From contig NZ_QYUO01000002.1 of assembly GCF_003591035.1 (NCBI RefSeq), forward strand, positions 1,364,001 through 1,428,000: a stretch of DNA of 64,000 bases, read 5' to 3'. Positions 44,568 through 64,000 of this stretch are shown here, piece by piece. Each line of letters starts with the position of its first letter. Positions within the stretch are counted from its first letter, which is position 1. This DNA comes from Noviherbaspirillum saxi (GTDB lineage Bacteria; Pseudomonadota; Gammaproteobacteria; Burkholderiales; Burkholderiaceae_D). The translations under genes and the position numbers were made by a program. The notes beneath the pieces were generated by a model. The model had not been told where the DNA came from. It ran no database searches and saw only the letters and a list, made by a program, of their open reading frames with translations.

Positions 44568-44632
44568 TTTCAAACCATTCGCTGAAAGCAGACTGCGCAA
44601 CGATTCCGCAGTCCATACCTTGATCCATGCAG

Positions 44633-46552: not shown

Positions 46553-46700
46553 TCTGGTTTCCTGTTCCATCGCAATACCCTTCGCCCGACTCGACGACGT
46601 GAACGTGAGCCGTGGTGATTACAGTATGGTCATCGCAGGAAAAAATGCCAGCATGTCGATGTCTGCGACGAACACGGCAATCACCTGATGGTATCGGTAT

Positions 46701-47117: not shown

Positions 47118-47180
47118 GGCCTGCACTCCTCGTTCTACTGACAATCACACGCTTGTTCGAATCGGCATGCACCGGTCTAT

Positions 47181-47609
47181 TCATTTCACGGTGATGGTTA
47201 TTTTTTTGGAATGCACCGGCGGGTTATGCGGAACGTGTTCCTTGTCGCCAAGCAGGAGTTGCAAGGTGTGCTTGCCTGGCGGAAGCTCGATACGCGCTTC
47301 GGTTTCTCCCGCGCCGAAATGCAGATGATTGCGATCCGAGGGAATCGGCTCGGTGGATGGAGGCAGGTCCGCATCGACCACCAGATGATGGTGTCCGACA
47401 TTCTTCATATCGACACCCTTGGGCGCAACGCCCATGTTGCGCAATCCCATTCTTACCCAGAACTTGCCGCCAGTGATCACAGCGCCGTCCGCCGGCCAGA
47501 TGAAATACACAAGCGCGTTTTCCGGCGCGGGATTCTGCTCCGCTGCAAACACGGGTGCATGCATGCCCGCCAAGATGGTCAAGGCAGAGAACAGGATATA
47601 TCTTGTCAT
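47181..47609 (-). CDS. Secreted DUF4399 protein, copy 2
   Basis: A 142-residue paralogue of the preceding entry: ALVYFIWPADGAVITGGKFWVRMGLRNMGVAPKGV, GHHHLVVDADLP, RNHLHFGAGETEARIELPPGKHTLQLLLGDKEHVPHNPPVHSKKITITV. The signal peptide ends near PVFAAE. The ATG at 47609 follows GAAGAGG; the longer upstream frame has a non-signal, Cys-rich tail and is not used. The two copies were probably formed by duplication and diverged. Confidence 0.82.
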   Translation of the reverse strand: MTRYILFSALTILAGMHAPVFAAEQNPAPENALVYFIWPADGAVITGGKFWVRMGLRNMGVAPKGVDMKNVGHHHLVVDADLPPSTEPIPSDRNHLHFGAGETEARIELPPGKHTLQLLLGDKEHVPHNPPVHSKKITITVK

Positions 47610-48023
47610 ATTGGGCCTCTTCCCGAATGTTTCGCTTTGCATTCTTTGTATACGCACGCACACGCATGCACACTCACTCATGCTGCCTGAAAGACATGAG
47701 CGCAGTTTTTTCGTGACCTGCATCCGGAGAAAACTAAGCGCCCGTATATTTCATCGGCGCTTTGATAGATACCATGTATAGGGTAGAACAGAATATTGTG
47801 CGTTCAGCACGAAAAACTGCGTAATGTTGATATTAAACAGAATTCACTTGGCGAGACGGCTCAAAGATGGATTTTCACAGGCGACTACTGCGCCAGGATA
47901 ACGTGTGTGCAATGGCTTGCCTTGATTGTACGTTTTCCTGTTCTAAGCTTCGATCAGTGCCCATCGCTGCTTTTTGCTGACAGGGTCCGGGCATTGGACA
48001 ATTCTTTTGCCGTGGGAACCATC
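47610..48023. other. Divergent interval with lower GC
   Basis: About 410 bases between the minus-strand DUF4399 gene and the plus-strand caspase gene. The frame of the caspase gene stays open back to 47796, but its first 76 codons carry no protein character and precede the signal peptide. No sigma-54 site was found here. The promoters of both neighbours must lie in this interval. Confidence 0.45.
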
Positions 48024-50024: not shown

Positions 50025-52163
50025 TCAAGGCTTTTTCGCCTTGGTCGTTATTTGCACAAAATCGACCATGATACGGTCCTTCCCATGTTTGGCCGCAATC
50101 AGGCCGAGCTGCTTTTCCACTGCGGCCAGATACTCAGTACGCGATTTATAGTCCGGCGTGCGCCCCTCGAACAAAGGAACCGGCGTGACGAGCAGCACGA
50201 TGAATTCTTTTCCGAACGGTTTTGAAATCACCCAGTTTTCCAGGCCGCCTATCGATGCGCGGTAGTTAGGCGGCGCCTGGTTGGCTTTCGAACGGCGGCT
50301 GGGCAATAAATGCGCGACGCTGCCATCGAGCGCGTAATAGTCGACATACACATAAGAATTGTAGCTCGGTGTCTTGATATCGACGACGAGCAAATCGCCT
50401 TCCGTCAGTTCCGCATTGGGTGCCCTGGTTTGCACCGAGGCTTCGGTGCCGCGCTCATGATTGCGTGTCCAGTAAGGCGAGAATGTGTTGACCACCGCAC
50501 ACTTCTCGGCACTGACCGCCTGCACCGACAGGTCAAGCCTGGTCACGCCGGGCACCGCTGTCAGCGTGTCCCTGAGCCGGCTCATGGGCATGTCGTCCGA
50601 AACGTATCCCTGCACATCGAGCGTATTGCCGCGTGCGGATGCCAACATGGCCGAACACGGTATGCGTGCCAGCACCGGCGTCACCGCCGCCAGCTTCAAC
50701 GGAGGTACGGGTACCGCTTTCGGTTCTTCTGCCTTGCGCGGCGGTGGCGATGGCGCCGCCACCGGCGGAGAAGGAGGCGTTACCACGGACGGAGAGGAAG
50801 GCGTCGCCACCGGCGGAGAGGGAGGCGCCGCGGGCGTTTCTGGTCGTGGTGCGCTGACCGGTGGCGGCGTCGGAACGGGACGTTCGGCGCCGCCGCTGCG
50901 CTGAAGGCGCCAGTAGTAGCCGACACCTGCCGCCGCCAGGGTTGCGATCAAGACAACTGCAGAAACCATCGCGATGTAAGCAACCTTCGAATGCTCAGCA
51001 TTCATTGCGCGAAGAAAATTCTCGACCGTTGCCGTACGCGCATCGCGCTGAAACGATAACGCCGCACGCAATGCCCGCCATTGCCGCTGTCCGAGATCCT
51101 TGGGCCTGACCGCCTTCATGCCGGCGCCGCGCGCCTGCGTGGCCGAAGCCCGATTGAATGGGTGCTTGCCGGTTAGCAGTTCATAGGTGATGCACGCCAA
51201 CGCATAGATATCGTCCCTTGGGTCGGGCTCCAGCCTGTCCAGCATTTCCGCGCTGGCATACGCTGGTGTCAGGCCGCCAAGACTGCCTGGATCGAAGACG
51301 GTCACATCCGCATCGTCTTCCGGTTTATGAAAGACGCGGGCGATGCCGAAGTCGATCACCTTGACTTCTCCGCGCTCGGTCAGGAACACGTTGGCCGGCT
51401 TCAGGTCGCAATGCACGAATCCGCGTTCATGCGCATATGCCAAGGCCTTGCCCATGCCATTGGTAATGTGCCAGACTTCCGCGTAGGGCAAGCCCTTGAA
51501 GTCAGGCGCGCGCAATATTCTGCTGAGCGATTTGCCTGAAAGCAGCTCCATCGTGAGGTAAACCGTCGAGCCGTCACGATCGAAGTCATAAACGGTAACG
51601 ATATTGGGATGCGCGAGCGCCTGCGCTTTTTTTGCCTCGCGTTGCAGGGTGATCAGCGATTTTGGATGCCCTCTAAACTGGACGTTCAGCACCTTGATCG
51701 CAATATACGGCTTGCGGTCCGATGCTTCGAGCTTGCGCAGGTCCAATGCACGATAAACAGTGCCCATGCCGCCAAAACCGATGCATTCTTCCAGAACGAA
51801 ACGTCCGTTCAACGTATCGCCGGTTCCCTTCATCCGGTCGGGATCCTTGCCGCCATTGTCCTGCGGCGGCATGCTTGCCGGTACTTTGGAGCGCGCAGGC
51901 AAATCGGTAGGACGTGTCTGAATATGGGTGGCTTCGGAGTTGGTGCGCTGGCCCGATTCCATCAGATGTTCGACCCGCCTGCGCAGTTCGACATAGACAT
52001 CGGGCGGCAATTCTATCCTGGTGTTTTCCTCGCTCAACAAGTCGGCCAGCCGTGCCGAACTGGCCCGATCGGACGCGAGCACATGGTCGACCTGCGCGAG
52101 AAACTCCCTATGCGAAAGGCCGCCGCTTTGGAAAGTACGAATTGCCTGCGCGAGAGTAGCCAT
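50025..52163 (-). CDS. Transmembrane Hanks-type Ser/Thr kinase with DUF4384-like periplasmic domain
   Basis: A 712-residue protein. Residues 121-390 are the kinase: glycine loop IGFGGMGTVY, ATP-binding Lys157 in YIAIKVL, catalytic HCDLKPAN (His251-Cys-Asp253), and DFG 271-273. The Cys in place of Arg in HRD makes it an RD-minus kinase, likely active without loop phosphorylation. A membrane span lies at 394-416. A Pro-rich linker and then a C-terminal domain (SPYWTRNHERGTEASVQT, VYVDYYALDGSVAHLLPS, FGKEFIVLLVTPVPLF) resemble DUF4384. It is the only kinase nearby, so it is the likely partner of the FHA proteins and of the PP2C phosphatase at 63007. Confidence 0.9.
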   Translation of the reverse strand: MATLAQAIRTFQSGGLSHREFLAQVDHVLASDRASSARLADLLSEENTRIELPPDVYVELRRRVEHLMESGQRTNSEATHIQTRPTDLPARSKVPASMPPQDNGGKDPDRMKGTGDTLNGRFVLEECIGFGGMGTVYRALDLRKLEASDRKPYIAIKVLNVQFRGHPKSLITLQREAKKAQALAHPNIVTVYDFDRDGSTVYLTMELLSGKSLSRILRAPDFKGLPYAEVWHITNGMGKALAYAHERGFVHCDLKPANVFLTERGEVKVIDFGIARVFHKPEDDADVTVFDPGSLGGLTPAYASAEMLDRLEPDPRDDIYALACITYELLTGKHPFNRASATQARGAGMKAVRPKDLGQRQWRALRAALSFQRDARTATVENFLRAMNAEHSKVAYIAMVSAVVLIATLAAAGVGYYWRLQRSGGAERPVPTPPPVSAPRPETPAAPPSPPVATPSSPSVVTPPSPPVAAPSPPPRKAEEPKAVPVPPLKLAAVTPVLARIPCSAMLASARGNTLDVQGYVSDDMPMSRLRDTLTAVPGVTRLDLSVQAVSAEKCAVVNTFSPYWTRNHERGTEASVQTRAPNAELTEGDLLVVDIKTPSYNSYVYVDYYALDGSVAHLLPSRRSKANQAPPNYRASIGGLENWVISKPFGKEFIVLLVTPVPLFEGRTPDYKSRTEYLAAVEKQLGLIAAKHGKDRIMVDFVQITTKAKKP

Positions 52164-52480: not shown

Positions 52481-52507
52481 TCCAACATGCATGTCTGATG
52501 TGTTGGA
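52481..52507. promoter_or_regulatory. Inverted repeat UAS, peptide cluster 1
   Basis: TCCAACA at 52481-52487 and TGTTGGA at 52501-52507, separated by 13 bases, 123 bp before the -24 element. It is shared with the other two peptide clusters and is placed like an enhancer site for a sigma-54 activator. The remaining bases from 52164 to 52480 hold no gene that I can support. Confidence 0.7.
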
Positions 52508-52629
52508 TGCAGCCCATCAACAGTCGGCTAGTCTGCTCCACGCTCCACTGCACCGCCTTCCCGCTTTCCACACACTTTCCACCATATATTCAAGCACTTA
52601 GCGCTTCCACCGGCCCACTCCACACGCGC

Positions 52630-52645
52630 TGGCACACTCCCTGCT
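52630..52645 (+). promoter_or_regulatory. Sigma-54 promoter, peptide cluster 1
   Basis: TGGCACACTCCCTGCT: GG and GC are ten bases apart, as required by sigma-54 -24/-12 promoters. It lies 120 bases before the first peptide gene and repeats almost unchanged before clusters 2 and 3. Confidence 0.85.
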
Positions 52646-52749
52646 ATCTCCTTATCGAGTGCGACACAATGATCGGCACCCAACCCCAAACGAATTACCC
52701 GCTTCACCTTACTTGACTTACTTAACCACTACCTCTCAGGAGAATTTCC

Positions 52750-53025
52750 ATGACTACCTTGATCATCACCGACCTGTCTGTTACCGAACAACTCGACTCC
52801 CGCGCGATGGCTGCAGTTCGCGGCGGCATGTACAAAGGTGCGCCTTTCTATCTCGGCCCGCTATTCAGTGCGTCCAAGAACGACTTCCAGTTCGACGCTT
52901 CCCAAATGCTTGGCCAAAGCCAGAACACCCTGGTCAACAACGGCAACAACGCCGCTTTCGTTTCCGGCATCACTTCCACCGTGAAACCGCATCAGCATGG
53001 CACCAACACCATCAACTTCGGCTAA
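52750..53025 (+). CDS. Double-glycine leader peptide, type 1 (cluster 1)
   Basis: A 91-residue precursor. The leader MTTLIITDLSVTEQLDSRAM plus AAVRGG ends with Gly25-Gly26, a typical double-glycine cut site recognised by C39-type peptidases. The mature part of 65 residues is rich in Asn, Gly and Gln (NTLVNNGNNAAF) and ends KPHQHGTNTINFG. It has no Cys and no membrane segment, so it is not a disulfide or lanthionine peptide. CAGGAGAATTTCC precedes the ATG. It is the first gene of the cluster under the sigma-54 promoter. Confidence 0.85.
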   Translation: MTTLIITDLSVTEQLDSRAMAAVRGGMYKGAPFYLGPLFSASKNDFQFDASQMLGQSQNTLVNNGNNAAFVSGITSTVKPHQHGTNTINFG

Positions 53026-53113
53026 TCCTGTGATCGCTGTCCGCCGGTGGAGGCAATGCCTCCATCCGCCGGAATCGCATCCACCGCATACCATTCATAC
53101 AAGGAGTTACACC

Positions 53114-53380
53114 ATGTCCACCATCGCCATTCACGATCTCGCCAACAGCACCGAACTCGACCAGCGCGCCATGTCGCGTGTGCGCGGCGGCACCAACAGC
53201 TGGCTCGCCGGCCTGGGTCCGATTGCCAACATCAATGTCGGCGTCACCCAAAACCTGAACCAGTTGCAAAACGTCGAAGTCAACACCCTCAACAATGTCG
53301 GCGTCATCGGTGCAGGTTTCGTACCGCCCCATATCACCGTCAATCCTTCGCAGTGGGGCAATATCAGTGCAACCGTCTGA
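53114..53380 (+). CDS. Double-glycine leader peptide, type 2 (cluster 1)
   Basis: An 88-residue precursor starting MSTIAIHDLANSTELDQRAM and then SRVRGG, with Gly25-Gly26 as cut site. The core has a repeated hydrophobic/Asn pattern (IANINVGVTQNLNQLQNVEVNTLNNVGVIGAGF) that could form beta-rich assemblies. It follows the first gene by 88 bases; a hairpin (TGGAGGC-AAT-GCCTCCA) in between may tune its level. GGAG lies upstream of the ATG. A near-identical copy is at 62223. Confidence 0.85.
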   Translation: MSTIAIHDLANSTELDQRAMSRVRGGTNSWLAGLGPIANINVGVTQNLNQLQNVEVNTLNNVGVIGAGFVPPHITVNPSQWGNISATV

Positions 53381-53586
53381 CAGCGTTGCTACCGCTTACC
53401 AATCCCGGCCCATCACCACGGATCGGGATCGATATAAGACGGCCGTCCCGATGTCCACTGGACAAAGGGATCGGCCGCATTGTCGCGTCTGTTCACCTAT
53501 ACTGGTGATAACCGTTTGCGACACTGACGCAGTGCTATCTGTCGCAGTGCTATCTGTATTTATTAACAGCGTTCAAGGAAACCATC

Positions 53587-53787
53587 ATGGCCAGCATCAC
53601 AATCAAGGATCTGCCGGAAAGCATCGATCTTGACCACGAAGCAATGGTCGCCATCACCGGTGGCGCACGCAGTGGAAGACACCAGGCATTTCATCAGCCT
53701 GCGGCACAACGTGGCACGCGCATCGTCGACTACCCGACCGGCGTACATCGCAGTTTTCCTTCGGTGAAAAATCAGTCTTCACGGTAA
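53587..53787 (+). CDS. Double-glycine leader peptide, type 3
   Basis: A 66-residue precursor: MASITIKDLPESIDLDHEAM then VAITGG, with the same leader spacing (I6, D8-L9, L15-D16, A19-M20, G25-G26) but a very different, basic 40-residue core (ARSGRHQAFHQPAAQRGTR and on). It lies 206 bases after the type 2 gene. A perfect 15-bp tandem repeat is at 53528-53557 just upstream. No proper sigma-54 site was found, so it may depend on read-through from cluster 1. Confidence 0.75.
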   Translation: MASITIKDLPESIDLDHEAMVAITGGARSGRHQAFHQPAAQRGTRIVDYPTGVHRSFPSVKNQSSR

Positions 53788-53988
53788 GACTGAAATCTCG
53801 GGACGAACGATACCGTCCTGGCATACACAGTATTGCATCGCCGAATTGATTTTTTATTCGTGATCCTGTCTTCTTCGATTTGCCGGAAGAGGACTGTTAG
53901 TGCTCGACGATCGAAATTATCGTCGGCGTAATTGATACCGTGACAGCAAGAACGAATAGCCGGCAGGCGCCGGCTGTTTGACAGGAGC

Positions 53989-55530
53989 TTATAACCTGAA
54001 CTCGGCAACGGCCTGGTTCAGCTTTTCGGCCTGTTCCTCCAGCGATCCCGCGGCGGCGGCAGCCTGTTCTACCAGTGCCGCATTCTGCTGCGTCACCGAA
54101 TCCATTTGCGATACCGCAAGGCTGACCTGGTCGATACCCGTGCTTTGCTCGACCGAAGCCTGGCTGATTTCAGACATGATGCTTTCGACCTTGGCGACAG
54201 CGTTCACGATTCTTTCCATCGTTTGACCAGCACGATCGACCATCACTGTCCCTTCGCTGACCTGCCTGACCGAGTTATCGATCAATTCCTTGATTTCCTT
54301 GGCGGCGGCAGCGGAGCGGTGTGCAAGACTGCGGACTTCGCTCGCCACCACAGCAAAGCCCTTGCCCTGCTCACCAGCGCGCGCTGCTTCGACGGCTGCA
54401 TTGAGTGCAAGTATATTGGTCTGGAATGCAATGCCTTCGATCACGCTGATAATGTCGACGATACGACCCGATGCGCTGTTGATGCCGTCCATGGTTTCCA
54501 CTACCAGGCTGACAACTTCGCCTCCCTCCTTCGCGATCGAGGACGCTTCCAGTGACAATGCGCTTGCCTGTCGTGCATTGTTGGCATTCTGACGCACGGT
54601 CGTCGCCAGGTTTTCCATGCTGCTTGCCGTTTCCTGCAGCGATGCGGCCTGCTCTTCGGTGCGTTGCGACAGGTCGGCATTGCCGGACGCGATTTCACGC
54701 GTTGCCGTTGCGATCAGGCCGGATCCTGAGCGCAGGTCGCCCACCATCCGCGACAGACTGGCTTGCATGCGCTGCAGCCCGGCCATCAAATGACCGATCT
54801 CGTTCCGACCACCCTGTTCAATCCGGCCGCTCAGGTTGCCGCTCGCAATGCGGTCGAACTGGACCATTATGGCGCCGAGCGGTTTGACGATGGACTTGCG
54901 GATTTGCCATGCCACGCCTGCACCAAGCAACACCCCGAGCACGATGAGTACGATCGCATAGCGCGTAAACTGCGTGAATTCTTCCTGCGATGCTGCGTAT
55001 TCCATCTGTGCACTATCGAGCTGCCGTTTCGCGAGTTCACCGCCGCGCGCATTGAGTTCGCGGTCCAGCGCCGGCACAATTTCCATCACGTGCCTTGCAA
55101 GCTCATCCTTGTTGCCTTCCTGTATTGCCTTAACAAGCCCCGCCACACCGGTATCGAAGAATGCGTTGCGGCGCTGCGATACTGTTGCGGCAAGCAAGTT
55201 TTCCTCGGCGGTGTGCGGCAGTTTTCCATATGCATTCCATGCGTCGTGGGATTTCTGCATGAAAGCTTGCGCCGCAGTGATACGTTTCGCGGCTTCTGGC
55301 GATTCGGGCGCAAACGCAGCCTGATCCAGCAATACCCGAACAAGCACCTGGTTCGATCGCGCATCGGCTAAATGAATACTGGCGGCCAGCTGATTCTCAT
55401 AGATATGCCGCGTCACTTCATTACTTTTATACAGCGCCGCAAGTGAAGCAAGCCCGGCTACGATCAGCATCACGCTATTGAAAGCGATCAGGTAGACAAG
55501 GCGCATGCCGACAGTGGTATTGCGAAACAT
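53989..55530 (-). CDS. Methyl-accepting chemotaxis protein
   Basis: A 513-residue chemoreceptor: membrane segment at about 12-33 (LVYLIAFNSVMLIVAGLASLAAL), four-helix periplasmic part to about 185, second segment (YAIVLIVLGVLLGAGVAW), HAMP, and the signalling hairpin [41 protein letters not shown]. It lacks a C-terminal CheR-binding pentapeptide, ending in AVAEFRL. The ATG at 55530 (MFRNTTVG) is preferred to the upstream extension. It lies between peptide clusters 1 and 2; whether it senses the peptides is unknown. Confidence 0.92.
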   Translation of the reverse strand: MFRNTTVGMRLVYLIAFNSVMLIVAGLASLAALYKSNEVTRHIYENQLAASIHLADARSNQVLVRVLLDQAAFAPESPEAAKRITAAQAFMQKSHDAWNAYGKLPHTAEENLLAATVSQRRNAFFDTGVAGLVKAIQEGNKDELARHVMEIVPALDRELNARGGELAKRQLDSAQMEYAASQEEFTQFTRYAIVLIVLGVLLGAGVAWQIRKSIVKPLGAIMVQFDRIASGNLSGRIEQGGRNEIGHLMAGLQRMQASLSRMVGDLRSGSGLIATATREIASGNADLSQRTEEQAASLQETASSMENLATTVRQNANNARQASALSLEASSIAKEGGEVVSLVVETMDGINSASGRIVDIISVIEGIAFQTNILALNAAVEAARAGEQGKGFAVVASEVRSLAHRSAAAAKEIKELIDNSVRQVSEGTVMVDRAGQTMERIVNAVAKVESIMSEISQASVEQSTGIDQVSLAVSQMDSVTQQNAALVEQAAAAAGSLEEQAEKLNQAVAEFRL

Positions 55531-55837
55531 GAATTCTCCGTATCGTTTGTGCGCGGGAATGCGGCAGCCGGAATTTGCTATGAGGATACTTAAATATACA
55601 ATATTTGTATACATAAAGTGATCCAGATCCGGGCCGTCAAGTTGGAGCTCATCGTCGGCGCGATTTCTTTACAACACCGTTGGACGAGCCGCCGCTTTGA
55701 TCTATAAAAGGCTGAATGAATCAGGCGTCTTCGCAGATAGGCAAGACGGACAACGTCATTAAGTAGCCCGGGCAGGGAGTTGCCTTTGTCCGTCTTTAGA
55801 TGCGGTGCTCTGTGACTTTTCATGACTGTCGCCGTTA

Positions 55838-55867
55838 ATCCAACAGCTGATCTTTAATGTGTTGGAT
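55838..55867. promoter_or_regulatory. Inverted repeat UAS, peptide cluster 2
   Basis: ATCCAACA and TGTTGGAT separated by 14 bases: a perfect 8-bp inverted repeat. It ends 122 bases before the -24 element. Same element as in clusters 1 and 3. No other gene can be supported in 55531-56108. Confidence 0.75.
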
Positions 55868-55988
55868 ATGGCCCATCAGCAGCTAGCTGGCGCGATCCTC
55901 GCCCCACTGCGCCACCTCCCCGCATACCGCATATTTTCCCCTGCATATTCAAGCACTTAGCACATCACCTGCCTCACTCCACACGCCC

Positions 55989-56004
55989 TGGCACACTCCC
56001 TGCA
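55989..56004 (+). promoter_or_regulatory. Sigma-54 promoter, peptide cluster 2
   Basis: TGGCACACTCCCTGCA, correct GG to GC spacing, 120 bases before the first peptide gene of cluster 2. Confidence 0.87.
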
Positions 56005-56108
56005 ATATCCCTATCGAGTGCGACACAATGACCGGCACCCAACCCCAAACGATTCACCCGCTTCACCTTACTTGACTTACTTAACCACTTCCTTTCAGGA
56101 GAATTGCC

Positions 56109-56384
56109 ATGACTACCTTGATCATCACCGACCTGTCCGTCACCGAACAACTCGATGCCCGTGCCATGACTGCCGTCCGCGGCGGCATGTACAAAGGCGT
56201 CTACCCCTTCTGGAGCCCGCTCGTGAGCGTCTCCAAAAACGACTTCCAGTTCGAAGCCGACCAGGCACTCGGTCAAAGCCAGAACACTATGGTCAACAAC
56301 GGCAACAACGTCGCCTTCGCGTCCGGGATCACTTCCACCGTGAAACCGCATCAGCATGGCGCCAACACCATCAACTTCGCTTAA
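56109..56384 (+). CDS. Double-glycine leader peptide, type 1b (cluster 2)
   Basis: A 91-residue precursor of the type 1 family with leader MTTLIITDLSVTEQLDARAM-TAVRGG. The core starts MYKGVYPFWSPLVSVSKNDF and ends TINFA. Residues 25-26 are the double glycine. An identical protein is encoded at 61527. CAGGAGAATTGCC precedes the ATG. It is the first gene behind the cluster 2 sigma-54 promoter. Confidence 0.85.
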   Translation: MTTLIITDLSVTEQLDARAMTAVRGGMYKGVYPFWSPLVSVSKNDFQFEADQALGQSQNTMVNNGNNVAFASGITSTVKPHQHGANTINFA

Positions 56385-56440
56385 TCGCAACATCCTGTTC
56401 ATTCATTTACGCAAGCCACTTATTCCTTTAGGAGAATCTC

Positions 56441-56716
56441 ATGAAAGCCCTGATCATCAACGACCTGTCCGTGACCGAAGAACTCGACGCCAGCGCCATG
56501 GCTGCTGTGCGCGGCGGCACCTACAAAGGCATGCCCTTCTACTTCGGCCCGCTGGTTAGCATGTCCAAGAACGACTTCCAGTTCGATGCCGAACAATCGC
56601 TTGGCCAGAGCCAGAATACGCTGGTCAACAACGGCAACAACGCCGCTTTCGTTTCCGGCATCACCTCGACCGTGAAACCGCATCAGCATGGCACCAACAC
56701 CATCAACTTCGGCTAA
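56441..56716 (+). CDS. Double-glycine leader peptide, type 1c (cluster 2)
   Basis: A 91-residue precursor, leader MKALIINDLSVTEELDASAM-AAVRGG, core TYKGMPFYFGPLVSMSKNDF and on to TINFG. It follows the preceding gene by 56 bases that include AGGAGAATCTC. Identical in protein to the gene at 61859, although the DNA differs in the second half. Confidence 0.85.
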   Translation: MKALIINDLSVTEELDASAMAAVRGGTYKGMPFYFGPLVSMSKNDFQFDAEQSLGQSQNTLVNNGNNAAFVSGITSTVKPHQHGTNTINFG

Positions 56717-56772
56717 TCGCAACATCCTGTTCATTCATTTACGCAAACCACTTATTCCTTTAGGAGAATGTC

Positions 56773-57048
56773 ATGAAAGCACTGATCATCAAAGACCTGT
56801 CCGTAACCGAAGAACTCGACGCCGGCGCCATGGCTGCGGTGCGCGGCGGCACCTACAAAGGCATGCCTTTCTACTTCGGCCCGCTGTTTAGCATGTCCAA
56901 GAACGACTTCCAGTTCGACGCTTCGCAGACGCTCGAGCAAAGCCAGAACACCCTGGTCAACAACGGCAACAACGTTGCATTCGCATCCGGCATCACTTCA
57001 ACCGTGAAACCACATCAGCATGGTGCCAACACCATCAACTTCGGCTAA
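56773..57048 (+). CDS. Double-glycine leader peptide, type 1d (cluster 2)
   Basis: A 91-residue precursor, leader MKALIIKDLSVTEELDAGAM-AAVRGG, core TYKGMPFYFGPLFSMSKNDF with TLEQSQNTLVNNGNNVAF. It is a tandem duplicate of the preceding gene, again with 56 bases of nearly identical spacer. It is the last gene of cluster 2, followed by a strong hairpin. Confidence 0.85.
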   Translation: MKALIIKDLSVTEELDAGAMAAVRGGTYKGMPFYFGPLFSMSKNDFQFDASQTLEQSQNTLVNNGNNVAFASGITSTVKPHQHGANTINFG

Positions 57049-57059
57049 TAAGCTGCGCT

Positions 57060-57100
57060 CGATACCGCCGGTGAGGGCAAAGCCTCCGCCGGCGGTATCG
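57060..57100 (+). terminator. Terminator after peptide cluster 2
   Basis: CGATACCGCCGG, a 17-base loop, then CCGGCGGTATCG: a perfect 12-bp stem, followed by CAATGTATTTT. It separates the peptide cluster from the convergent hipBA genes and may stop both. Confidence 0.7.
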
Positions 57101-57120
57101 CAATGTATTTTCTGAGGTAG

Positions 57121-58392
57121 TCAGCCTTGCCGCCCTGCAGGCTTGACAGCTTTTCCAGGCTTCGGCGGAGGTGAGGTCAACGTCGTATTGAGTCCTGTCT
57201 CCCAGCATGCGAGTAAGCGCTCCCCGGCCTTCCTGAACTCTGGACGATCTCCCATGTACTGTCTGATGTCCGCGCGCGTCGCAGACATGGCATCGGCCAC
57301 CCGCTCGACGATCTGCGATATGTGATCGTTCGCCAGGCCGCAATGAACACGGCCGAAGTCATGGAGTTTTCTGGCATTCGGGAAGCGTTTGGAACCGCCC
57401 AAGGTCAGTGCCAATGTATCGTGCGTGATGTACGGCGTGGTCGATACGATGTCATACGTGGGCGCGAACGAGACCGGAGCGTCCGCATTGTCATATAAGA
57501 CCCCGAAATTCTTCAGATGGGCATCTCCATTCTGTACAGCACATGACACGACGAAGGAAGTGAAAAATTCCTCCATCGCCTGCTTCTTATGTTCTGTGTC
57601 AACGTACTCACCGATGCGCCTGGCGAGCTGTTCATAACTGGAATCGTATTTTCTGGCCGTGCCAACGCCGTTGAGCGAACAGAAATCTTCAAAACCAACA
57701 TATCGACCATCATCCTTGCGATCGAAGCGGTCGACCACAAGGAATCGTCCATTGTCCGAGAGTTGCAGCTTCGGGATTCTGAGGCCTGCACGCTTGGCGA
57801 CCTGCATGCAAAAAAACTCGTTTGTCGCAAGCTCCGGAAATTCCTTAGGGTCAAAAGTTTTGACGATATGCGTCGCATCGCTCGCCGTGATGCGACCTTG
57901 CATGGCGGGCTTGTCTTCATCGCGCACCAGCACCTTAGGCTGTACGCCGGATACGCCAGAAACGGCCGAGTAACGTTCCATCAGGTAGTGCAGAAGGCCT
58001 TCGGTATCCTTGGTGTGCAGGATTTCCTTGATGCTTTGCGGCGGCACATCGGCTTTTACTTGCTCATTGGAGTAGCGCAGGCGTCCGATCTGAGAAGAAC
58101 CGACCAGATCCAGCATATTGAGATCATCAAAACCAGAAATGGCCTTGCTGAAGCGCAGCATGATCGTGCGACGCAGATCGCCTTCCGGCAAATTCATCTG
58201 AAACACCGGATGCAGCTCGTCATAGATGTAGCTTTCGGTTTCTACCGGCATGGTCAGTGAAACCGCGCAATGGCTTTCGCACTTGAGATCGTAGGTAAAG
58301 ACGAAGCGCTTTTCCGCGGCGCGGTCGATCGCCCCGGCAACGATGTGATCGTCGCCGCTTCCTTCGCGGCGATTTACCCAGACCAGCATCAT
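57121..58392 (-). CDS. hipA: HipA-type toxin kinase
   Basis: A 423-residue HipA-family Ser/Thr kinase. Typical segments are FQMNLPEGDLRRTIMLRFSKAISGFDDLNML, VSGVQPKVLVR, THIVKTFDPKEFPELATNEFFCMQVAKRAGL, RFLVVDRFDR, and the catalytic loop FVVSCAVQNGDAHLKNFGVLYD, followed by APTYDIVSTTPY. HipA toxins phosphorylate targets such as aminoacyl-tRNA synthetases and cause dormancy. It overlaps the antitoxin gene by four bases (ATGA), the usual coupling. Confidence 0.9.
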   Translation of the reverse strand: MMLVWVNRREGSGDDHIVAGAIDRAAEKRFVFTYDLKCESHCAVSLTMPVETESYIYDELHPVFQMNLPEGDLRRTIMLRFSKAISGFDDLNMLDLVGSSQIGRLRYSNEQVKADVPPQSIKEILHTKDTEGLLHYLMERYSAVSGVSGVQPKVLVRDEDKPAMQGRITASDATHIVKTFDPKEFPELATNEFFCMQVAKRAGLRIPKLQLSDNGRFLVVDRFDRKDDGRYVGFEDFCSLNGVGTARKYDSSYEQLARRIGEYVDTEHKKQAMEEFFTSFVVSCAVQNGDAHLKNFGVLYDNADAPVSFAPTYDIVSTTPYITHDTLALTLGGSKRFPNARKLHDFGRVHCGLANDHISQIVERVADAMSATRADIRQYMGDRPEFRKAGERLLACWETGLNTTLTSPPPKPGKAVKPAGRQG

Positions 58393-58790
58393 TCTTCGCT
58401 CTCCTTCGCTTTCTTCGGACGACGTACGCGCTTGCGCAAGCTTGTAATGGCTTCATCGGGCTGAGGCGATGTCGTCTCGGCCCAAGCGGCATTCTTCGGC
58501 CCGCGTGGTCCCATGGCAGAAAGCGCATGGCGTGAACGGAGTTGTTCCGCCGACTCCATTGCCAGGCTACGCAGCGTCGGCCGCTTGCGAACCGGTTGCA
58601 ATGTCAATTCCAGTGCAAGACGCTCACAGACGCGCATGATTTTCCGAATGCCCAGTTCGGCCAGCCTGCCGTTTTCGAGACGGCTGAGTGTTGCCCGGGA
58701 AATTTCGGCAAAAGCGCACAGTTCTTCCTGCTGCACGCCTTTTTCCAGCCTTGCTTTTTTTATCTCCAAGCCTATTTGAATTAAGTCCAT
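58389..58790 (-). CDS. hipB: HipB-type antitoxin (XRE helix-turn-helix)
   Basis: A 133-residue protein with an N-terminal helix-turn-helix at residues about 5-60 (IGLEIKKARLEKGVQQEELCAFAEISRATLSRLENGRLAELGIRKIMRVCERL) and a basic C-terminal tail (ITSLRKRVRRPKKAKE). It is longer than E. coli HipB because of this tail. It should bind its own promoter, neutralise HipA and be co-transcribed with it. The AT-rich stretch just before the start is the likely operator. Confidence 0.88.
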   Translation of the reverse strand: MDLIQIGLEIKKARLEKGVQQEELCAFAEISRATLSRLENGRLAELGIRKIMRVCERLALELTLQPVRKRPTLRSLAMESAEQLRSRHALSAMGPRGPKNAAWAETTSPQPDEAITSLRKRVRRPKKAKESEE

Positions 58791-58874
58791 AATGAATCAC
58801 AAACTACACATTAAATAATATTTATTTATATTGTATAGTATGCGATACATAAAGCAATGATAACGAAGATGGAT

Positions 58875-59044
58875 TTATTCCTTTTTAACTGTACTCATCA
58901 TCAGGCCTCCAACCAAACCGGCTCCAGGCCGAATATGATGCTGGTCGTCTGAACACGCTGATGGCGCAGGCTGGCGACCACGAGACCTTATCCAAGCGCG
59001 GTGAAAACCACGCCCAGAACGACCAGATAGCCAATCCCCCGCAT
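58875..59044 (-). pseudogene. Remnant of an EamA/DMT-type transporter C-terminus
   Basis: On the minus strand from 59044 one frame reads MRGIGYLVVLGVVFTALG, a stop, then GLVVASLRHQRVQTTSIIFG LEPVW. A second frame ends AGLVGGLMMSTVKKE. The TTSIIFGLEPVW and AGLVGGLMM pieces look like the last helices of EamA transporters, broken by a stop and a deletion or frameshift. It lies ten bases after the oxidase stop. The call is tentative. Confidence 0.45.
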
Positions 59045-59053
59045 TACGCACTC

Positions 59054-60238
59054 TCACAAAATGCCGCGTTCCGGATAAGGCTCATGCTTAAGCACCCGTT
59101 CATAGCCCAGCCGACTGAGATCGATGGTTTCAAACCGCCCTTTATTGATCAGCTCCGCAACGCCGCGCCCGGCAGCCGGGGCATGCATCATCCCATGGCC
59201 TGAAAAACCGCTCACGACGTAAAAATTCTCGTGGTTTCCAGTCCAGCTGCCGATGATGGGATTGCCATCCAGCTCGCTTTGCTCATACAGCCCCGACCAC
59301 GTGCGATGACACTTCACGCCCTCAAAGGCAATCGGAAAGCGATGCGCAAGTGCCGGCCAAACGACCTCCTCGAAGTAGTGATGATCAACATCGAAATTGA
59401 ATCCCCTGGGTTCATGCGAATTGACCAAGCCGCCGGAGAAGCCCTGGCCTTCGGAGCGAAAAGCCAATCGGTTGAGATCCTTTACATAGGGCAAGGGCTC
59501 GATCTGGCGATGCCCGGTGAAGTAATGTTCAAAACGGCGCAGTGGCGACACCGGAAGGACCATGCCTGCCATGGCACTAACCTGTGCCGACCAGGCACCT
59601 GCGGCATTGACAAAGTAATCGGCGGCAAGCGTCGTACCACTGGATAGTGTTGCCCCGACAATCGTGTCAGAAGACCAGGTGAAACCACTGACCCGATCGC
59701 TGATGAACTCCACGCCGAGCGACTTCGTCTTTTTGCGCGTACCCTGCAGAAAGCTGTTCGGGTCGCACCAGCCATCTTTGGGGGAATAGGCGGCGCCATC
59801 GAGGTCATCAACGTGCATCGAAGGAAAAAGCTGTTTCAAACCTTCTCTGTCGAGCATCCTTATGTCTGCCCCCAGCGCCTGCTGCACCTGCGCATTCTCC
59901 TCAAGCATCTGCAACGCCCTGCTTCCTTGCACGATGAATAAATAGCCTTGTTCCACCCAGTCGATCGGCGCAGGAACGCCGTCCACGCTCATCTCAGCCG
60001 AAAAGTTCTTGATGCGTTCAATGCTGAAGTTGGACATCTCAATGTTTTCCGGACAAGAGAACAACCGCCGGGCGCCGCCGGACGCACGCACTGTCGATGC
60101 ATATTCATAGGTCGGGTCAGGTTCGATGACGGCGACCTCCATGGCCGGATTCTGCTGTTTCAAAAAGTAGGCAACGTAACAACCGACAATGCCTCCGCCA
60201 GCAATAAGAACGTCATATTTGTTACGAAGGCTATGCAT
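59054..60238 (-). CDS. FAD-dependent amino-acid/amine oxidoreductase (DAO family)
   Basis: A 394-residue flavoprotein. The FAD dinucleotide-binding motif is DVLIAGGGIVGCYVAYFLKQ, and family segments are RASGGARRLFSCPENIEMSNFSIERIKNF, YFVNAAGAWSAQVSAMAG and FYVVSGFSGHGMMHAPAAGRGVAELI. The fold is that of DadA, sarcosine and glycine oxidase-like enzymes. CTGAGGAGAAACGC precedes the ATG. It is divergent from a GntR regulator, which is likely to control it through the palindrome at 60282. A former transporter partner lies decayed downstream. The substrate is unknown. Confidence 0.88.
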   Translation of the reverse strand: MHSLRNKYDVLIAGGGIVGCYVAYFLKQQNPAMEVAVIEPDPTYEYASTVRASGGARRLFSCPENIEMSNFSIERIKNFSAEMSVDGVPAPIDWVEQGYLFIVQGSRALQMLEENAQVQQALGADIRMLDREGLKQLFPSMHVDDLDGAAYSPKDGWCDPNSFLQGTRKKTKSLGVEFISDRVSGFTWSSDTIVGATLSSGTTLAADYFVNAAGAWSAQVSAMAGMVLPVSPLRRFEHYFTGHRQIEPLPYVKDLNRLAFRSEGQGFSGGLVNSHEPRGFNFDVDHHYFEEVVWPALAHRFPIAFEGVKCHRTWSGLYEQSELDGNPIIGSWTGNHENFYVVSGFSGHGMMHAPAAGRGVAELINKGRFETIDLSRLGYERVLKHEPYPERGIL

Positions 60239-60281
60239 GCGTTTCTCCTCAGATCATTCCGAAAAAGGTATATTATCCTAT

Positions 60282-60293
60282 TTTGGATCCAAA
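60282..60293. promoter_or_regulatory. Palindromic operator between oxidase and GntR genes
   Basis: TTTGGATCCAAA, a perfect 12-bp palindrome in the AT-rich divergent region. FCD-type GntR proteins bind short symmetric sites of this length, so it is the probable operator for the neighbouring regulator. Confidence 0.65.
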
Positions 60294-60346
60294 TTAATAT
60301 ACAGTTTCTGGCGCTGGGATCACGCCATTGTTAACGTTCGCCATCC

Positions 60347-60970
60347 ATGGAAAAATTGACATCAGACCACATTGCGCTTGAGTTAAGAAAGCGCATCCAT
60401 GCCGGCGCTCTTGCTGGAGGGGTATCGCTCAAGCAGGAAGAACTGGCAGACGAGTTCGGCGTCAGCCGCATCCCTGTGAGGGAAGCGCTCAAGCGACTGG
60501 AGGTGGAAGGACTGATCCGCCACCAGCCAAACAAAGGTGCCGTCGTCCTTGCTCATAGCGTTGAGGACGTCATTGAAATGCTCGATATCCGGCTCGGCCT
60601 GGAAACGCGCGCACTCGAACTGGCAGCACCACGATTAACTCCAGCGGACCTGGATGCCGCAGGGGAAATTCTCCGTCAGTATGATGCGACCAGCAAACCT
60701 GCTCAATGGACCGATCTGAACCTGCAATTCCATTTGGTCCTGTACAAGGCAGCAGGCAAACCGCGTCTTCTGAAGATGATTGAAGAATTGTTCCTAAGTA
60801 CCCAGCGCTATACCCGCATCCTTATCTCCCATACGGTTGGCCGGGAACAACCGCAGAGAGAACACCATGAAATGCTGAATGCCCTCCGCGACGGCAAGAC
60901 AAATCACGCTATTTCACTACTACGGCAACATATTCTGCATACACAGAGAGCGCTGACAGATTCGCAATAA
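60347..60970 (+). CDS. GntR-family regulator, FCD type
   Basis: A 207-residue regulator. Winged helix at residues about 5-68 (SDHIALELRKRIHAGALAGGVSLKQEELADEFGVSRIPVREALKRLEVEGLIRHQPNKGAVV) and a helical FCD ligand domain with LDIRLGLETRALELAAPRL and the metal-binding His residues of FHLVLYKAAG and HHEMLNALRDG. It is divergent from the oxidase and probably induced by its substrate. The ribosome binding site is weak. Confidence 0.9.
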   Translation: MEKLTSDHIALELRKRIHAGALAGGVSLKQEELADEFGVSRIPVREALKRLEVEGLIRHQPNKGAVVLAHSVEDVIEMLDIRLGLETRALELAAPRLTPADLDAAGEILRQYDATSKPAQWTDLNLQFHLVLYKAAGKPRLLKMIEELFLSTQRYTRILISHTVGREQPQREHHEMLNALRDGKTNHAISLLRQHILHTQRALTDSQ

Positions 60971-61247
60971 GCAAGGACTCGGCATTCTCCTGACGTCGTT
61001 CGCGCTGAACGACAGTTCGATATTGTCGCTATTGCTCACCATGTTCGACGGGCTGGAATCGATATGCGATAGCCCTGATGTCTGGTTTAACCCGGCATAT
61101 GTATAGCAAGTGTCGGGCGGTGTACATCGCTCCCTATCAACAGTGTCTTGTTTCCTGTGTGAAGGCGTACTTGATGCTCGTTAAAAAAATGCAAGATTAG
61201 CCAGTAATCCATTAGGCTTGCCTCAGCTTTGCATTAGTCTTCATTAA

Positions 61248-61275
61248 TCCAACAGTTGATCTTTAATGTGTTGGA
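61248..61275. promoter_or_regulatory. Inverted repeat UAS, peptide cluster 3
   Basis: TCCAACA and TGTTGGA separated by 14 bases, ending 122 bases before the -24 element. Almost identical to the cluster 2 copy. The bases 60971-61247 hold no supported gene. Confidence 0.75.
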
Positions 61276-61397
61276 TATGGCCCATCAGCAGCTAGCTGGC
61301 GCAATCCTCGCCCCACTGCGCCACCTCCCCGCATACCGCATATTTTCCCCTGCATATTCAAGCACTTAGAGCCTCCTCCGCCTCACTCCACACGCCC

Positions 61398-61413
61398 TGG
61401 CACACTCCCTGCA
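61398..61413 (+). promoter_or_regulatory. Sigma-54 promoter, peptide cluster 3
   Basis: TGGCACACTCCCTGCA, same sequence as in cluster 2. The distance to the first peptide ATG is 129 bases instead of 120, because a 9-bp unit (TTGACTTAC) is duplicated in the leader. Confidence 0.87.
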
Positions 61414-61526
61414 ATATCCCTATCGAGTGCGACACAATGACCGGCACCCAACCCCAAACGATTCACCCGCTTCACCTTACTTGACTTACTTGACTTACTT
61501 AACCACTTCCTTTCAGGAGAATTGCC

Positions 61527-61802
61527 ATGACTACCTTGATCATCACCGACCTGTCCGTCACCGAACAACTCGATGCCCGTGCCATGACTGCCGTTCGCGG
61601 CGGCATGTACAAAGGCGTCTACCCCTTCTGGAGCCCGCTCGTGAGCGTCTCCAAAAACGACTTCCAGTTCGAAGCCGACCAGGCACTCGGTCAAAGCCAG
61701 AACACTATGGTCAACAACGGCAACAACGTCGCCTTCGCGTCCGGTATCACTTCCACCGTGAAACCGCATCAGCATGGCGCCAACACCATCAACTTCGCTT
61801 AA
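61527..61802 (+). CDS. Double-glycine leader peptide, type 1b (cluster 3)
   Basis: A 91-residue precursor identical in protein sequence to the gene at 56109, with Gly25-Gly26 as cut site and a core beginning MYKGVYPFWSPL. Only a few silent DNA changes separate the copies. First gene behind the cluster 3 sigma-54 promoter. Confidence 0.85.
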   Translation: MTTLIITDLSVTEQLDARAMTAVRGGMYKGVYPFWSPLVSVSKNDFQFEADQALGQSQNTMVNNGNNVAFASGITSTVKPHQHGANTINFA

Positions 61803-61858
61803 TCGCAACATCCTGTTCATTCATTTACGCAAACCACTTATTCCTTTAGGAGAATTTC

Positions 61859-62134
61859 ATGAAAGCCCTGATCATCAACGACCTGTCCGTGACCGAAGAA
61901 CTCGACGCCAGCGCCATGGCAGCTGTGCGCGGCGGCACTTACAAAGGCATGCCCTTCTACTTCGGCCCGCTGGTTAGCATGTCCAAGAACGACTTCCAGT
62001 TCGATGCCGAACAATCGCTTGGCCAGAGCCAGAACACCCTGGTCAACAACGGCAACAACGCCGCTTTCGTTTCCGGCATCACTTCCACCGTGAAACCGCA
62101 TCAGCATGGCACCAACACCATCAACTTCGGCTAA
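61859..62134 (+). CDS. Double-glycine leader peptide, type 1c (cluster 3), recombinant
   Basis: A 91-residue precursor identical in protein to the gene at 56441. Its DNA follows that gene through the first half. From about 62030 it follows the type 1 gene of cluster 1 (CAGAACACCCTGGTCAAC and CACTTCCACCGTG instead of CAGAATACGCTGG and CACCTCGACCGTG). This marks a recombination point. The spacer before it is the same 56-base spacer as in cluster 2. Confidence 0.85.
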   Translation: MKALIINDLSVTEELDASAMAAVRGGTYKGMPFYFGPLVSMSKNDFQFDAEQSLGQSQNTLVNNGNNAAFVSGITSTVKPHQHGTNTINFG

Positions 62135-62222
62135 TCCCTGTGAGCGAACCCCGACGGTGGAGGCCAGTCCTCCACCTACCGGATCCGCATCCCACCTCAC
62201 CATACATTCCAGGAGTTACACC

Positions 62223-62489
62223 ATGTCCACCATCGCCATTCACGATCTCGCCAACAGCACCGAACTCGACCAGCGCGCCATGTCGCGTGTACGCGGCGGC
62301 ACCAACAGCTGGCTCGCCGGCCTGGGTCCGATTGCCAACATCAATGTCGGCGTCACCCAAAACCTGAACCAGTTCCAAAACGTCGAAGTCAACACTCTCA
62401 ACAATGTCGGCGTCATCGGTGCAGGTTTCGTACCGCCCCATATCACTGTCAATCCTTCGCAGTGGGGCAATATCAGCGCGACCGTGTAA
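62223..62489 (+). CDS. Double-glycine leader peptide, type 2 (cluster 3)
   Basis: An 88-residue precursor that differs from the copy at 53114 by one residue (Phe for Leu in NLNQFQNVEV). Leader MSTIAIHDLANSTELDQRAM-SRVRGG. A hairpin (GGTGGAGG, five-base loop, CCTCCACC) lies in the 88-base gap before it. GGAG precedes the ATG. Confidence 0.85.
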   Translation: MSTIAIHDLANSTELDQRAMSRVRGGTNSWLAGLGPIANINVGVTQNLNQFQNVEVNTLNNVGVIGAGFVPPHITVNPSQWGNISATV

Positions 62490-62542
62490 AAACGGCACTG
62501 GCTGAGGGACAACTAAGGATGCGGACACCTACTATGCGCCAT

Positions 62543-62558
62543 TGGCACGCCAATTGCT
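62543..62558 (+). promoter_or_regulatory. Consensus sigma-54 promoter before the type 4 peptide gene
   Basis: TGGCACGCCAATTGCT fits the sigma-54 consensus TGGCACG-N4-TTGCW at every position. It is 76 bases upstream of the ATG at 62619. The TCCAACA/TGTTGGA element is not seen upstream of it. Confidence 0.9.
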
Positions 62559-62618
62559 GTATGAAGAAGCAGGAGCATTTCTGACGCAATATAACCAACA
62601 GCCACCTTGGAGACCATC

Positions 62619-62903
62619 ATGACCACACTTTCTATCAAAGACCTTCCGCTGAACCGCGCCCTTGATTCCAAGGCAATGTCGGTCATTCGGGGCGCCGGCG
62701 CACCATGGGTCTTCGGATGGATCAGGCCATATGTTGGTTCCACCCCTGCTTTCGGACCGGCTGTGAACTTTTTCCAGATCAACAATACCTATATCGCCGA
62801 TCAGATGATCAACCAAATCCAGGTGGTTGACATTAACAACTCGGCATCGAATTCAAACATTAACGTCATCCTTGATGAACGCAGCACAAACCTGAAGCAT
62901 TAA
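62619..62903 (+). CDS. Double-glycine-type leader peptide, type 4 (GA variant)
   Basis: A 94-residue precursor with the common leader spacing: MTTLSIKDLPLNRALDSKAM then SVIRGAG, so the cut site is Gly25-Ala26 instead of Gly-Gly. The core has WVFGWIRPYVGSTPAF and an Asn/Ile-rich part (FFQINNTYIADQMINQIQVV). No Cys. The ATG at 62619 follows TTGGAGACC; an ATG 12 bases earlier is ignored because the leader alignment starts here. Own sigma-54 promoter. Confidence 0.8.
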   Translation: MTTLSIKDLPLNRALDSKAMSVIRGAGAPWVFGWIRPYVGSTPAFGPAVNFFQINNTYIADQMINQIQVVDINNSASNSNINVILDERSTNLKH

Positions 62904-63006
62904 GCACGCAAGGCCGAGGATTTTGGATGTACGATGTTTATACGACGCGCGGCGGAACGTTGCCCCGCATGGCGTCGCGATGACGGCATGATTCGTGGAG
63001 ACTGTG

Positions 63007-63777
63007 ATGACTGATGCAACACACTTTCGATGGACATCCTCGTCGCGCTCCCACGTGGGCTTGATCCGTGAAATCAACGAGGATTCGTTTCTCGATCGGC
63101 CCGAGCGCGGCATGTGGGCAGTCGCCGACGGCATGGGCGGACACTCTTTGGGGGATTATGCGAGCCGCATGGTGGTCGCCCGACTGGACGACATTCCCTA
63201 TCCTGGCGATCTGAAAAATTTTTTGATCGAAGCGAAGAACCGGCTGCAATCGGCCAACCACGACCTGCGCCAGGAAGCGATCGTGCGCGACGTCTATATC
63301 ATCGGCAGCACCGCCGTCGTTCTTCTGGCATGGGAAAGTGAGTGCGGCTATCTGTGGGCAGGAGACAGCCGCATCTACCGGTACCGGCAGGGCGAACTGC
63401 AACTGCTGACGCGCGATCATAGCCAAGTCGAGGAACTCAAGGCCCGCGCCGGACTCAGCGACGAAGAAGCACAGCAACATGCGACACGCAACATGATTAC
63501 CCGCGCAGTGGGCGCAGCCGACATGCTGGAAATCGATGAAAACGTGGTGCAGGTCGACGACGGCGACATGTTCCTGTTATGCAGCGACGGTTTGAGCAAT
63601 GCAGTCAGCGAGCAGGAAATGCGCAACGCGCTTTCGGTTGGCGATTGTGGGCAGGCATCCGAAACCTTGATCAACATGGCGCTCAACGGCGGCGGACGAG
63701 ACAATATTTCCGCGGTTGTCGTGCGCGTGGACGATGATCGCAGAGGTGACATGACGGCGCTGAATCCGGCGCTGTGA
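63007..63777 (+). CDS. PP2C-type protein phosphatase
   Basis: A 256-residue soluble phosphatase. The metal-binding motifs are clear: EINEDSF (Asp near residue 26), VADGMGGHSLGD, VYIIGSTAVVLL, LWAGDSRIYRYRQGELQLLTRDHSQVEEL, LCSDGLSN and GGRDNISAVVVRV. GTGGAG lies six bases before the ATG at 63007. It removes phosphate from Ser/Thr and is the natural counterpart of the kinase at 50025 and the FHA proteins. It follows the type 4 peptide gene by 103 bases. Confidence 0.9.
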   Translation: MTDATHFRWTSSSRSHVGLIREINEDSFLDRPERGMWAVADGMGGHSLGDYASRMVVARLDDIPYPGDLKNFLIEAKNRLQSANHDLRQEAIVRDVYIIGSTAVVLLAWESECGYLWAGDSRIYRYRQGELQLLTRDHSQVEELKARAGLSDEEAQQHATRNMITRAVGAADMLEIDENVVQVDDGDMFLLCSDGLSNAVSEQEMRNALSVGDCGQASETLINMALNGGGRDNISAVVVRVDDDRRGDMTALNPAL

Positions 63778-63811: not shown

Positions 63812-64000
63812 CTACCGGCGCTGGATGGGCGTGTCGCCATTTCCGTCAGGCTGCACAGCCTGACGGCGAAAGTCCTTCGAATGAATGCCATGCTTTTTCA
63901 GCAGCATCTGCAAATGCGAACGGTTCATGTCGCAACGTCTGGCCAGTTCCGCCACCGTACCACCCACTTCCTTCAAACCTTTTTCCAGAAAGGCCTTTTC
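63812..64000 (-). CDS. C-terminus of a Fis-type, probably sigma-54-dependent, regulator (partial)
   Basis: Minus-strand frame from the window edge to a TAG at 63812, 62 residues. It contains EKAFLEKGLKEVGGTVAELARRCDMNRSHLQMLLKKHGIHSKDF, the Fis-type helix-turn-helix that ends NtrC-class activators. The AAA+ part lies outside. It is convergent with the PP2C gene. It is the best candidate for the activator of the four sigma-54 promoters in this region. Confidence 0.75.
   Translation of the reverse strand, partial: EKAFLEKGLKEVGGTVAELARRCDMNRSHLQMLLKKHGIHSKDFRRQAVQPDGNGDTPIQRR

Follow-up and report, generated by a model that had tools for sequence, protein, structure and literature searches.

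What does a bacterium do with ten small genes that share one N-terminal leader and carry cores of several kinds? Such a set is found in Noviherbaspirillum saxi, in a stretch of 64,000 nucleotides (contig NZ_QYUO01000002.1, positions 1,364,001 to 1,428,000; hereafter the window, whose numbering is used throughout; Table 1). An initial annotation had described ten genes with one leader grammar and cores devoid of Cys, and had interpreted them as a secreted repertoire of several members that share a processing signal, in contrast to a single bacteriocin. All ten open reading frames (ORFs) are present at the described starts, encode 66 to 94 amino acids, display the leader positions as described and contain no Cys. 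The idea of a repertoire is strengthened by a nearby C39 exporter, a conserved co-localisation and a common sigma-54 promoter pattern. With a probability of about 0.55, we favour a sigma-54-controlled type I system exporting double-glycine (GG)-leader peptides that would build an extracellular matrix, comparable to EbfG/PteB of Synechococcus elongatus. Export and co-regulation, taken on their own, are very likely.

The seven distinct leaders have in common the invariant residues M1, I6, D8, L9, L15, D16, A19, M20 and G25, conserved hydrophobic positions and a GG or GA end, which places them among the double-glycine leaders. A profile built from these seven sequences detected 13 places at E<=1 in the whole 6.5 Mb genome, and the ten best (E 8.8e-17 to 2.1e-14) are exactly the ten genes. 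A single shuffle of the 10996 ORFs of the 42 exporter loci described below left no leader match, versus 108 in the real sequences; this control and the genome-wide ranking rule out leaders arising by chance. Three further leader genes are localized elsewhere in the genome (C2:143227, corresponding to L037:1501; C2:255247, in L038; and C1:1639884). In the first two the leader is as in the window and the cores differ; a sigma-54-like site is found 77 bp upstream at C2:143227 and about 295 bp upstream at C2:255247.

The gene of the exporter is reached 1.1 kb beyond the window end. The protein is composed of two cyclic nucleotide monophosphate (cNMP) stretches, a C39 peptidase and an ATP-binding cassette (ABC) part, which is the domain order of HetC. 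Gln311, Cys317, His390 and Asp406, the catalytic residues of C39, are in place, and the alignment with PCAT1 (PDB 4ry2) spans residues 304-1012. Four C39 matches were detected in the genome and only the frame of this exporter (1037 aa) suffices for an ABC fusion, the others comprising 261 to 349 aa. Together with genes for an HlyD-type membrane fusion protein and a TolC-type outer-membrane factor (OEP), the exporter forms the gene set of tripartite type I secretion. In the window this block is split: 20-25 kb separate the HlyD and OEP genes from the exporter, with the peptide arrays and unrelated genes in between. Membership of the NHLP-type exporters (TIGR03796) was rejected (560.6 bits, equivalog cut-off 853.3).

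Exporter and peptides occur together in other genomes. Among 60 genomes, including that of N. saxi, full-length exporter orthologues (cNMP part included, at least 76% identity) are present in 16, and the same 16 match the type A peptide (G006 over residues 1-39 only) and all carry leader matches. In this survey, which scored at most 13 candidates per genome, the leader profile was positive in 18 of the 60, namely these 16 and two of the other 44, with a single match. The conservation of the leader in relatives, proposed as a check by the initial annotation, is thereby borne out. A scan with the cNMP part of the exporter provided 42 named loci, and the exporter-peptide block recurs in Beta- and Gammaproteobacteria. 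The gene order OEP-FHA-HlyD-isomerase-exporter-activator is found in 33 loci, HlyD and OEP in 34, the activator in 41 and the strict Gln/Cys/His pattern of C39 in 40 (exceptions L067 and L068). Leader peptides are encoded in 37 loci, with 108 peptides within the fetched DNA. At E<=0.001, and counting the window's own proteins, type A matched 129 database proteins (up to 21 per genome), type B 121 and type D 168. The genera of named relatives include Noviherbaspirillum, Herbaspirillum, Janthinobacterium, Massilia, Cupriavidus, Paraburkholderia, Burkholderia, Caballeronia and Trinickia, and the A, B and D cores are conserved across genera. Among the matches listed, all relatives are named "hypothetical" or "uncharacterized", except one "Bacteriocin" in UniRef (P0069).

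The arrays also share their predicted control elements. The pattern TGGCAC-N5-YTGCW occurs four times in the window (0.24 expected; four reached in none of 100 shuffles), and every copy stands ahead of an array or of the type D gene. In the 300 bp upstream of the type C gene, no sigma-54-like site with at least 8 of 10 positions is present. Across the 42 loci, 64 of 67 genes that open an array are preceded by a -24/-12 site (at least 8 of 10 positions matched, GG and GC obligatory), which falls between -130 and -50 in 63 cases; among internal genes, 3 of 38 have such a site. Controls gave 7.3% for random windows from the same loci and about 8.4% for Markov-shuffled upstream regions. At 9 or more positions, the values are 42 of 67, 1 of 38 and 1.2% of random windows. 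The site is missing before three array-first genes, all of them type C-like (L067, L068, L075). Ahead of the promoters, putative upstream activating sequences (UAS) of the form CCAACA...TGTTGG (at most two mismatches, gap 0-20) were detected in 55 of 61 non-redundant regions (shuffled mean 6.2), and 51 of these 61 regions show the opposite arrangement (shuffled mean 6.4), the commonest gaps being 14 (23/55) and 7 (21/51), respectively. The genome contains four exact copies of CCAACA-N13/14-TGTTGG, three of them before these arrays, and none of the backwards control. The fourth (C1:2641048) is probably due to chance; by eye it is near short-chain-dehydrogenase-like and AMP-ligase-like frames, and no leader gene was seen. 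At the sequence level, the -24/-12 element, the UAS and the linked AAA+ activator point to sigma-54 control, and this activator would be the protein that binds the UAS motif.

The ten genes comprise six of type A, two of type B and one each of types C and D, arranged as A-B-C, A-A-A and A-A-B-D. Array 3 repeats blocks of arrays 1 and 2 at 92-97% DNA identity, and the identical proteins in arrays 2 and 3 are explained by this segmental duplication. The type A pairs of the window that diverged display nonsynonymous divergences (dN) of 0.05-0.15 versus synonymous divergences (dS) of 0.35-0.60. Array 3 is probably the oldest, because with the PP2C gene (A-A-B-D-PP2C) it is ordered as in Noviherbaspirillum sp. 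Root189 (L039, A-A-A-B-D-PP2C; types by eye).

The cores are 40 to 68 residues long. Those of types A, B and D contain 20-24% Asn and Gln (N+Q) with a charge near zero, whereas type C has a net charge of +6 and an N+Q content of 0.12; the description of several cores as Asn/Gln-rich applies to A, B and D and does not extend to C. The four types had also been considered as unrelated. This is correct for type C, which shows no relation to the other types in profile comparison, but hhalign aligned A with B over 53 columns (probability 79), B with D over 25 columns (72) and A with D over 16 columns (41). Each score exceeds all 100 column shuffles and the similarity is centred on Q-x(3)-Q-x-Q, so that A, B and D are probably remotely related. 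In profile comparison, cores from Marinobacterium (M) and of the VAPV/IAPV type (E) were not linked to A, B or D (highest probability 6%, B-E). Five loci encode a type C peptide, again with a short core, which contains YPxG in four of them, and type D displays the strongly conserved motif W-V-x-G-W-I. AlphaFold2 models reached a mean pLDDT (predicted local distance difference test) of 52.7 for type A (39-row alignment) and 44.6 for type D (36-row alignment), too low to support a fold search.

No match above cut-off was obtained for five window peptides in Pfam and NCBIfam, nor for four peptides from other genomes in Pfam. The class II bacteriocin family PF10439 (Bacteriocin_IIc) was rejected, its best match being type B with 13.4 bits (E 0.081, cut-off 27.1), as were the radical S-adenosylmethionine-modified GG peptides TIGR04149, matched by type B only (15 bits, cut-off 25). 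Curli subunits (CsgA/CsgB) are small, secreted and Q/N-patterned. The peptides resemble them by their small size, their Q/N content and their predicted secretion; membership was rejected because Curlin_rpt gave no match in seven peptides (E up to 10), a search in which HMMER filters discard most weak matches. In Marinobacterium rhizophilum (L075:14916-17932), cores of the form QLNIxV...Q-x-NSN-x-V-x-Q look curli-repeat-like by eye, and none of the three scanned matches Curlin_rpt.

From these elements, a dedicated peptide secretion system can be proposed, of which the ten genes would be the cargo. The exporter-adjacent activator would bind the TGTTGG/CCAACA palindromes about 110-150 bp upstream of the -24/-12 promoters and turn the arrays on jointly. 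The precursors would be recognised by the 26-residue leader, which the C39 domain of the exporter would remove after Gly-Gly or Gly-Ala, and the peptides would pass via HlyD and the TolC-like channel. The system is probably linked to phospho-signalling: the parvulin isomerase, the FHA proteins, the Ser/Thr kinase and the PP2C phosphatase may set its activity. Outside the cell, cores A, B and D, unfolded and containing Q/N, would assemble into a biofilm matrix, probably fibrous or adhesive.

The last step is suggested by known systems. In PMC9981879, EbfG1-4 of S. elongatus are described as GG-leader proteins needed for biofilm, and EbfG1-3 are reported to form amyloid fibrils. PteB is a C39 transporter whose Cys is required for efficient secretion, and which is needed for efficient secretion and biofilm (PMC4997328, PMC9981879). 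As in these descriptions, several small GG-leader proteins are encoded here in an operon-like arrangement and are accompanied by a C39 transporter gene; an extracellular role is presumed. The differences are the occurrence in Beta- and Gammaproteobacteria, the HlyD and TolC-type genes, the FHA, kinase and PP2C genes, the sigma-54-type promoters with UAS and a larger number of copies. For HetC of Nostoc PCC 7120, PMC10986499 reports an N-terminal domain that binds ppGpp and is required for function, and states that hetC has no fusion-protein or outer-membrane gene in its vicinity. Our exporter has the same succession of N-terminal cNMP, C39 and ABC domains but two cNMP stretches, linked fusion-protein and outer-membrane genes and candidate cargo. 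With PCAT1 and the bacteriocin exporters it shares the C39-ABC core, and it differs from them by the additional N-terminal cNMP region and by a cargo that is not bacteriocin-like in family tests; PMC3223724 was informative on C39/GG bacteriocin export in general only. The C39 protease FapD is required for export of the Pseudomonas matrix amyloid Fap (PMC5557850). In contrast to the C39 domain within the ABC exporter, FapD acts as a protease in the periplasm and has a signal peptide of its own, the outer-membrane channel of that system being FapF. These parallels (EbfG/PteB, HetC and FapD), together with near-neutral, N/Q-containing cores that lack a confident fold, make matrix building the best single guess.

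Several points weigh against it. The matrix role is deduced by analogy with EbfG/PteB. The poor models of A and D fit unfolded subunits but also shallow alignments. The kinship of A, B and D is weak and N/Q composition may inflate its score; type C differs from the other types and is devoid of its own sigma-54 site. The missing Curlin_rpt match and the sub-threshold match of type B to a modified-peptide leader family (TIGR04149) go in the same direction. Many of the 42 loci come from Caballeronia, so the counts are not independent. In five loci the fetched DNA encodes no peptide (L041, L044, L069, L074 and L076). For L041, L074 and L076 the sequence covered was 10.9-15.8 kb; the coordinates of L044 (N. 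massiliense) coincide with those of G006:C2, where leaders are found 10-14 kb beyond the exporter, and in N. aridicola, from which L069 comes, a type A relative is encoded elsewhere (P0105). At the threshold used, Marinobacterium has no kinase homologue. As for the promoters, the Y of the window pattern was allowed after three sites had been seen with C, the full consensus being that of the type D site only, and the UAS motif was discovered on the data used for counting, so that its counts are descriptive, although they span many species.

The cores could also be pheromone-like signals, as proposed for Nostoc HetC, with cNMP domains reading ppGpp or a similar molecule. The HetC-like domain order and the proximity of kinase, phosphatase and activator genes agree with this, but the cores are long, present in many copies and conserved across genera. 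Signalling peptides usually vary more. Moreover, no dedicated receptor stood out in the comparison of loci, which covered the window's own genes. We consider signalling as unlikely and, among the options listed by the initial annotation, favour a structural or adhesive role over it.

Slightly less likely still is the killing of competitors by class II bacteriocins or microcins, for which a GG leader with a C39 exporter is the classic arrangement; the relative named Bacteriocin and the sub-threshold Bacteriocin_IIc match of type B are in its favour. Against this, adjoining A genes are separated by only 56 bp (56385-56440, 56717-56772 and 61803-61858), which leaves no room for immunity genes between them. 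No immunity or modification gene was found among the window genes recurring in the loci, small ORFs not being surveyed, and the A, B and D cores are near-neutral and under purifying change. Another surface role (envelope protection, host-surface contact or metal binding), with N/Q cores folding only on a partner, would accommodate the low-confidence monomer models and the W-V-x-G-W-I motif of type D, whose conservation suggests a specific contact. We regard it as improbable, since nothing positive was found for it and the closest GG-leader precedent is a matrix.

The matrix reading, which we prefer, can be given a more specific form, put forward tentatively and at somewhat less than even odds. 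The system would be the proteobacterial counterpart of EbfG, a widespread functional-amyloid or fibre secretion system with A and B as bulk subunits, D (WVFGWI motif) as a possible nucleator or anchor and C as a cationic component. The subunits would move directly from the cytosol to the outside through the tripartite C39 exporter, whose gating would depend on a nucleotide ligand of the cNMP stretches and on FHA-read threonine phosphorylation, and the arrays would form one sigma-54 regulon.

Table 1. Peptide genes, predicted control elements and system genes (window numbering).
Feature	Position	Strand	Remark
Type A GG-leader peptide gene, 91 aa	52750..53025	+	array 1
Type B GG-leader peptide gene, 88 aa	53114..53380	+	array 1
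Type C GG-leader peptide gene, 66 aa	53587..53787	+	array 1; short cationic core with DYPTG
Type A GG-leader peptide gene	56109..56384	+	array 2
Type A GG-leader peptide gene	56441..56716	+	array 2
Type A GG-leader peptide gene	56773..57048	+	array 2
Type A GG-leader peptide gene	61527..61802	+	array 3; protein identical to 56109
Type A GG-leader peptide gene	61859..62134	+	array 3; protein identical to 56441
Type B GG-leader peptide gene	62223..62489	+	array 3
Type D GG-leader peptide gene, 94 aa	62619..62903	+	array 3; core GAPWVFGWIRPY...ADQMINQ; leader end Gly-Ala
Predicted UAS, array 1	52482..52519	+	CCAACA-N13-TGTTGG overlapping TGTTGG-N7-CCATCA
Predicted sigma-54 (-24/-12) promoter, array 1	52630..52645	+	TGGCACACTCCCTGCT
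Predicted UAS, array 2	55840..55878	+	
Predicted sigma-54 promoter, array 2	55989..56004	+	
Predicted UAS, array 3	61249..61287	+	
Predicted sigma-54 promoter, array 3	61398..61413	+	
Consensus sigma-54 promoter (predicted), type D gene	62543..62558	+	TGGCACGCCAATTGCT; UAS candidates weak, within upstream type B gene
HlyD-type membrane fusion protein	39223..40725	-	true start probably further in
Protein with two FHA stretches	40593..43088	-	
TolC-type outer-membrane factor (OEP)	43089..44705	-	
FHA-GAF-HD protein	44633..46570	-	homologue in 4/42 exporter loci
Ser/Thr protein kinase with DUF4384	50025..52163	-	homologue in 14/15 carrier genomes searched, six of them as two matched pieces
PP2C-type Ser/Thr phosphatase	62995..63777	+	homologue in 36/42 exporter loci
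Sigma-54 activator (AAA+ enhancer-binding protein), C-terminal end	63812..64000	-	gene continues past window end to 65128 (L005:12813-14129)
cNMP-C39-ABC exporter, 1019 aa	65125-68184	-	past window end
PpiC-type (parvulin) isomerase	about 68204-68968	-	past window end

Other genes are found between those of Table 1. An adjoining pair of DUF4399 genes (46701-47144 and 47181-47723, minus strand) may belong to the system, because 28 of the 42 exporter loci contain a DUF4399 gene as well. Between the FHA and kinase genes, positions 47796-49976 (plus strand) encode a caspase-like Peptidase_C14 domain fused to an FGE-sulfatase domain. Arrays 1 and 2 are separated by a methyl-accepting chemotaxis protein gene (53989-55614, minus strand), with a homologue in three of the 42 loci, and arrays 2 and 3 by a HipA-type protein gene and its helix-turn-helix partner (57121-58790, minus strand), a HipBA-like pair.

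GG-leader peptides with C39 exporters are an already known kind of system. No description of tripartite export combined with an isomerase, with FHA, kinase and PP2C genes, and with promoters of the sigma-54 type that have a UAS of their own was found among the matches listed from the open-licence literature, judged by title and start of abstract. Around 360 protein clusters listed from Noviherbaspirillum, Caballeronia, Cupriavidus and others, most of them without a name or called "hypothetical", are likely cargo of one regulated export system, and the signature of leader and promoter can be used to find more members. Three questions are thus made testable: which roles double-glycine peptides have in Gram-negative bacteria besides killing, which ligand the cNMP domains read in exporters like HetC, and whether type I secretion is gated by Ser/Thr phosphorylation.

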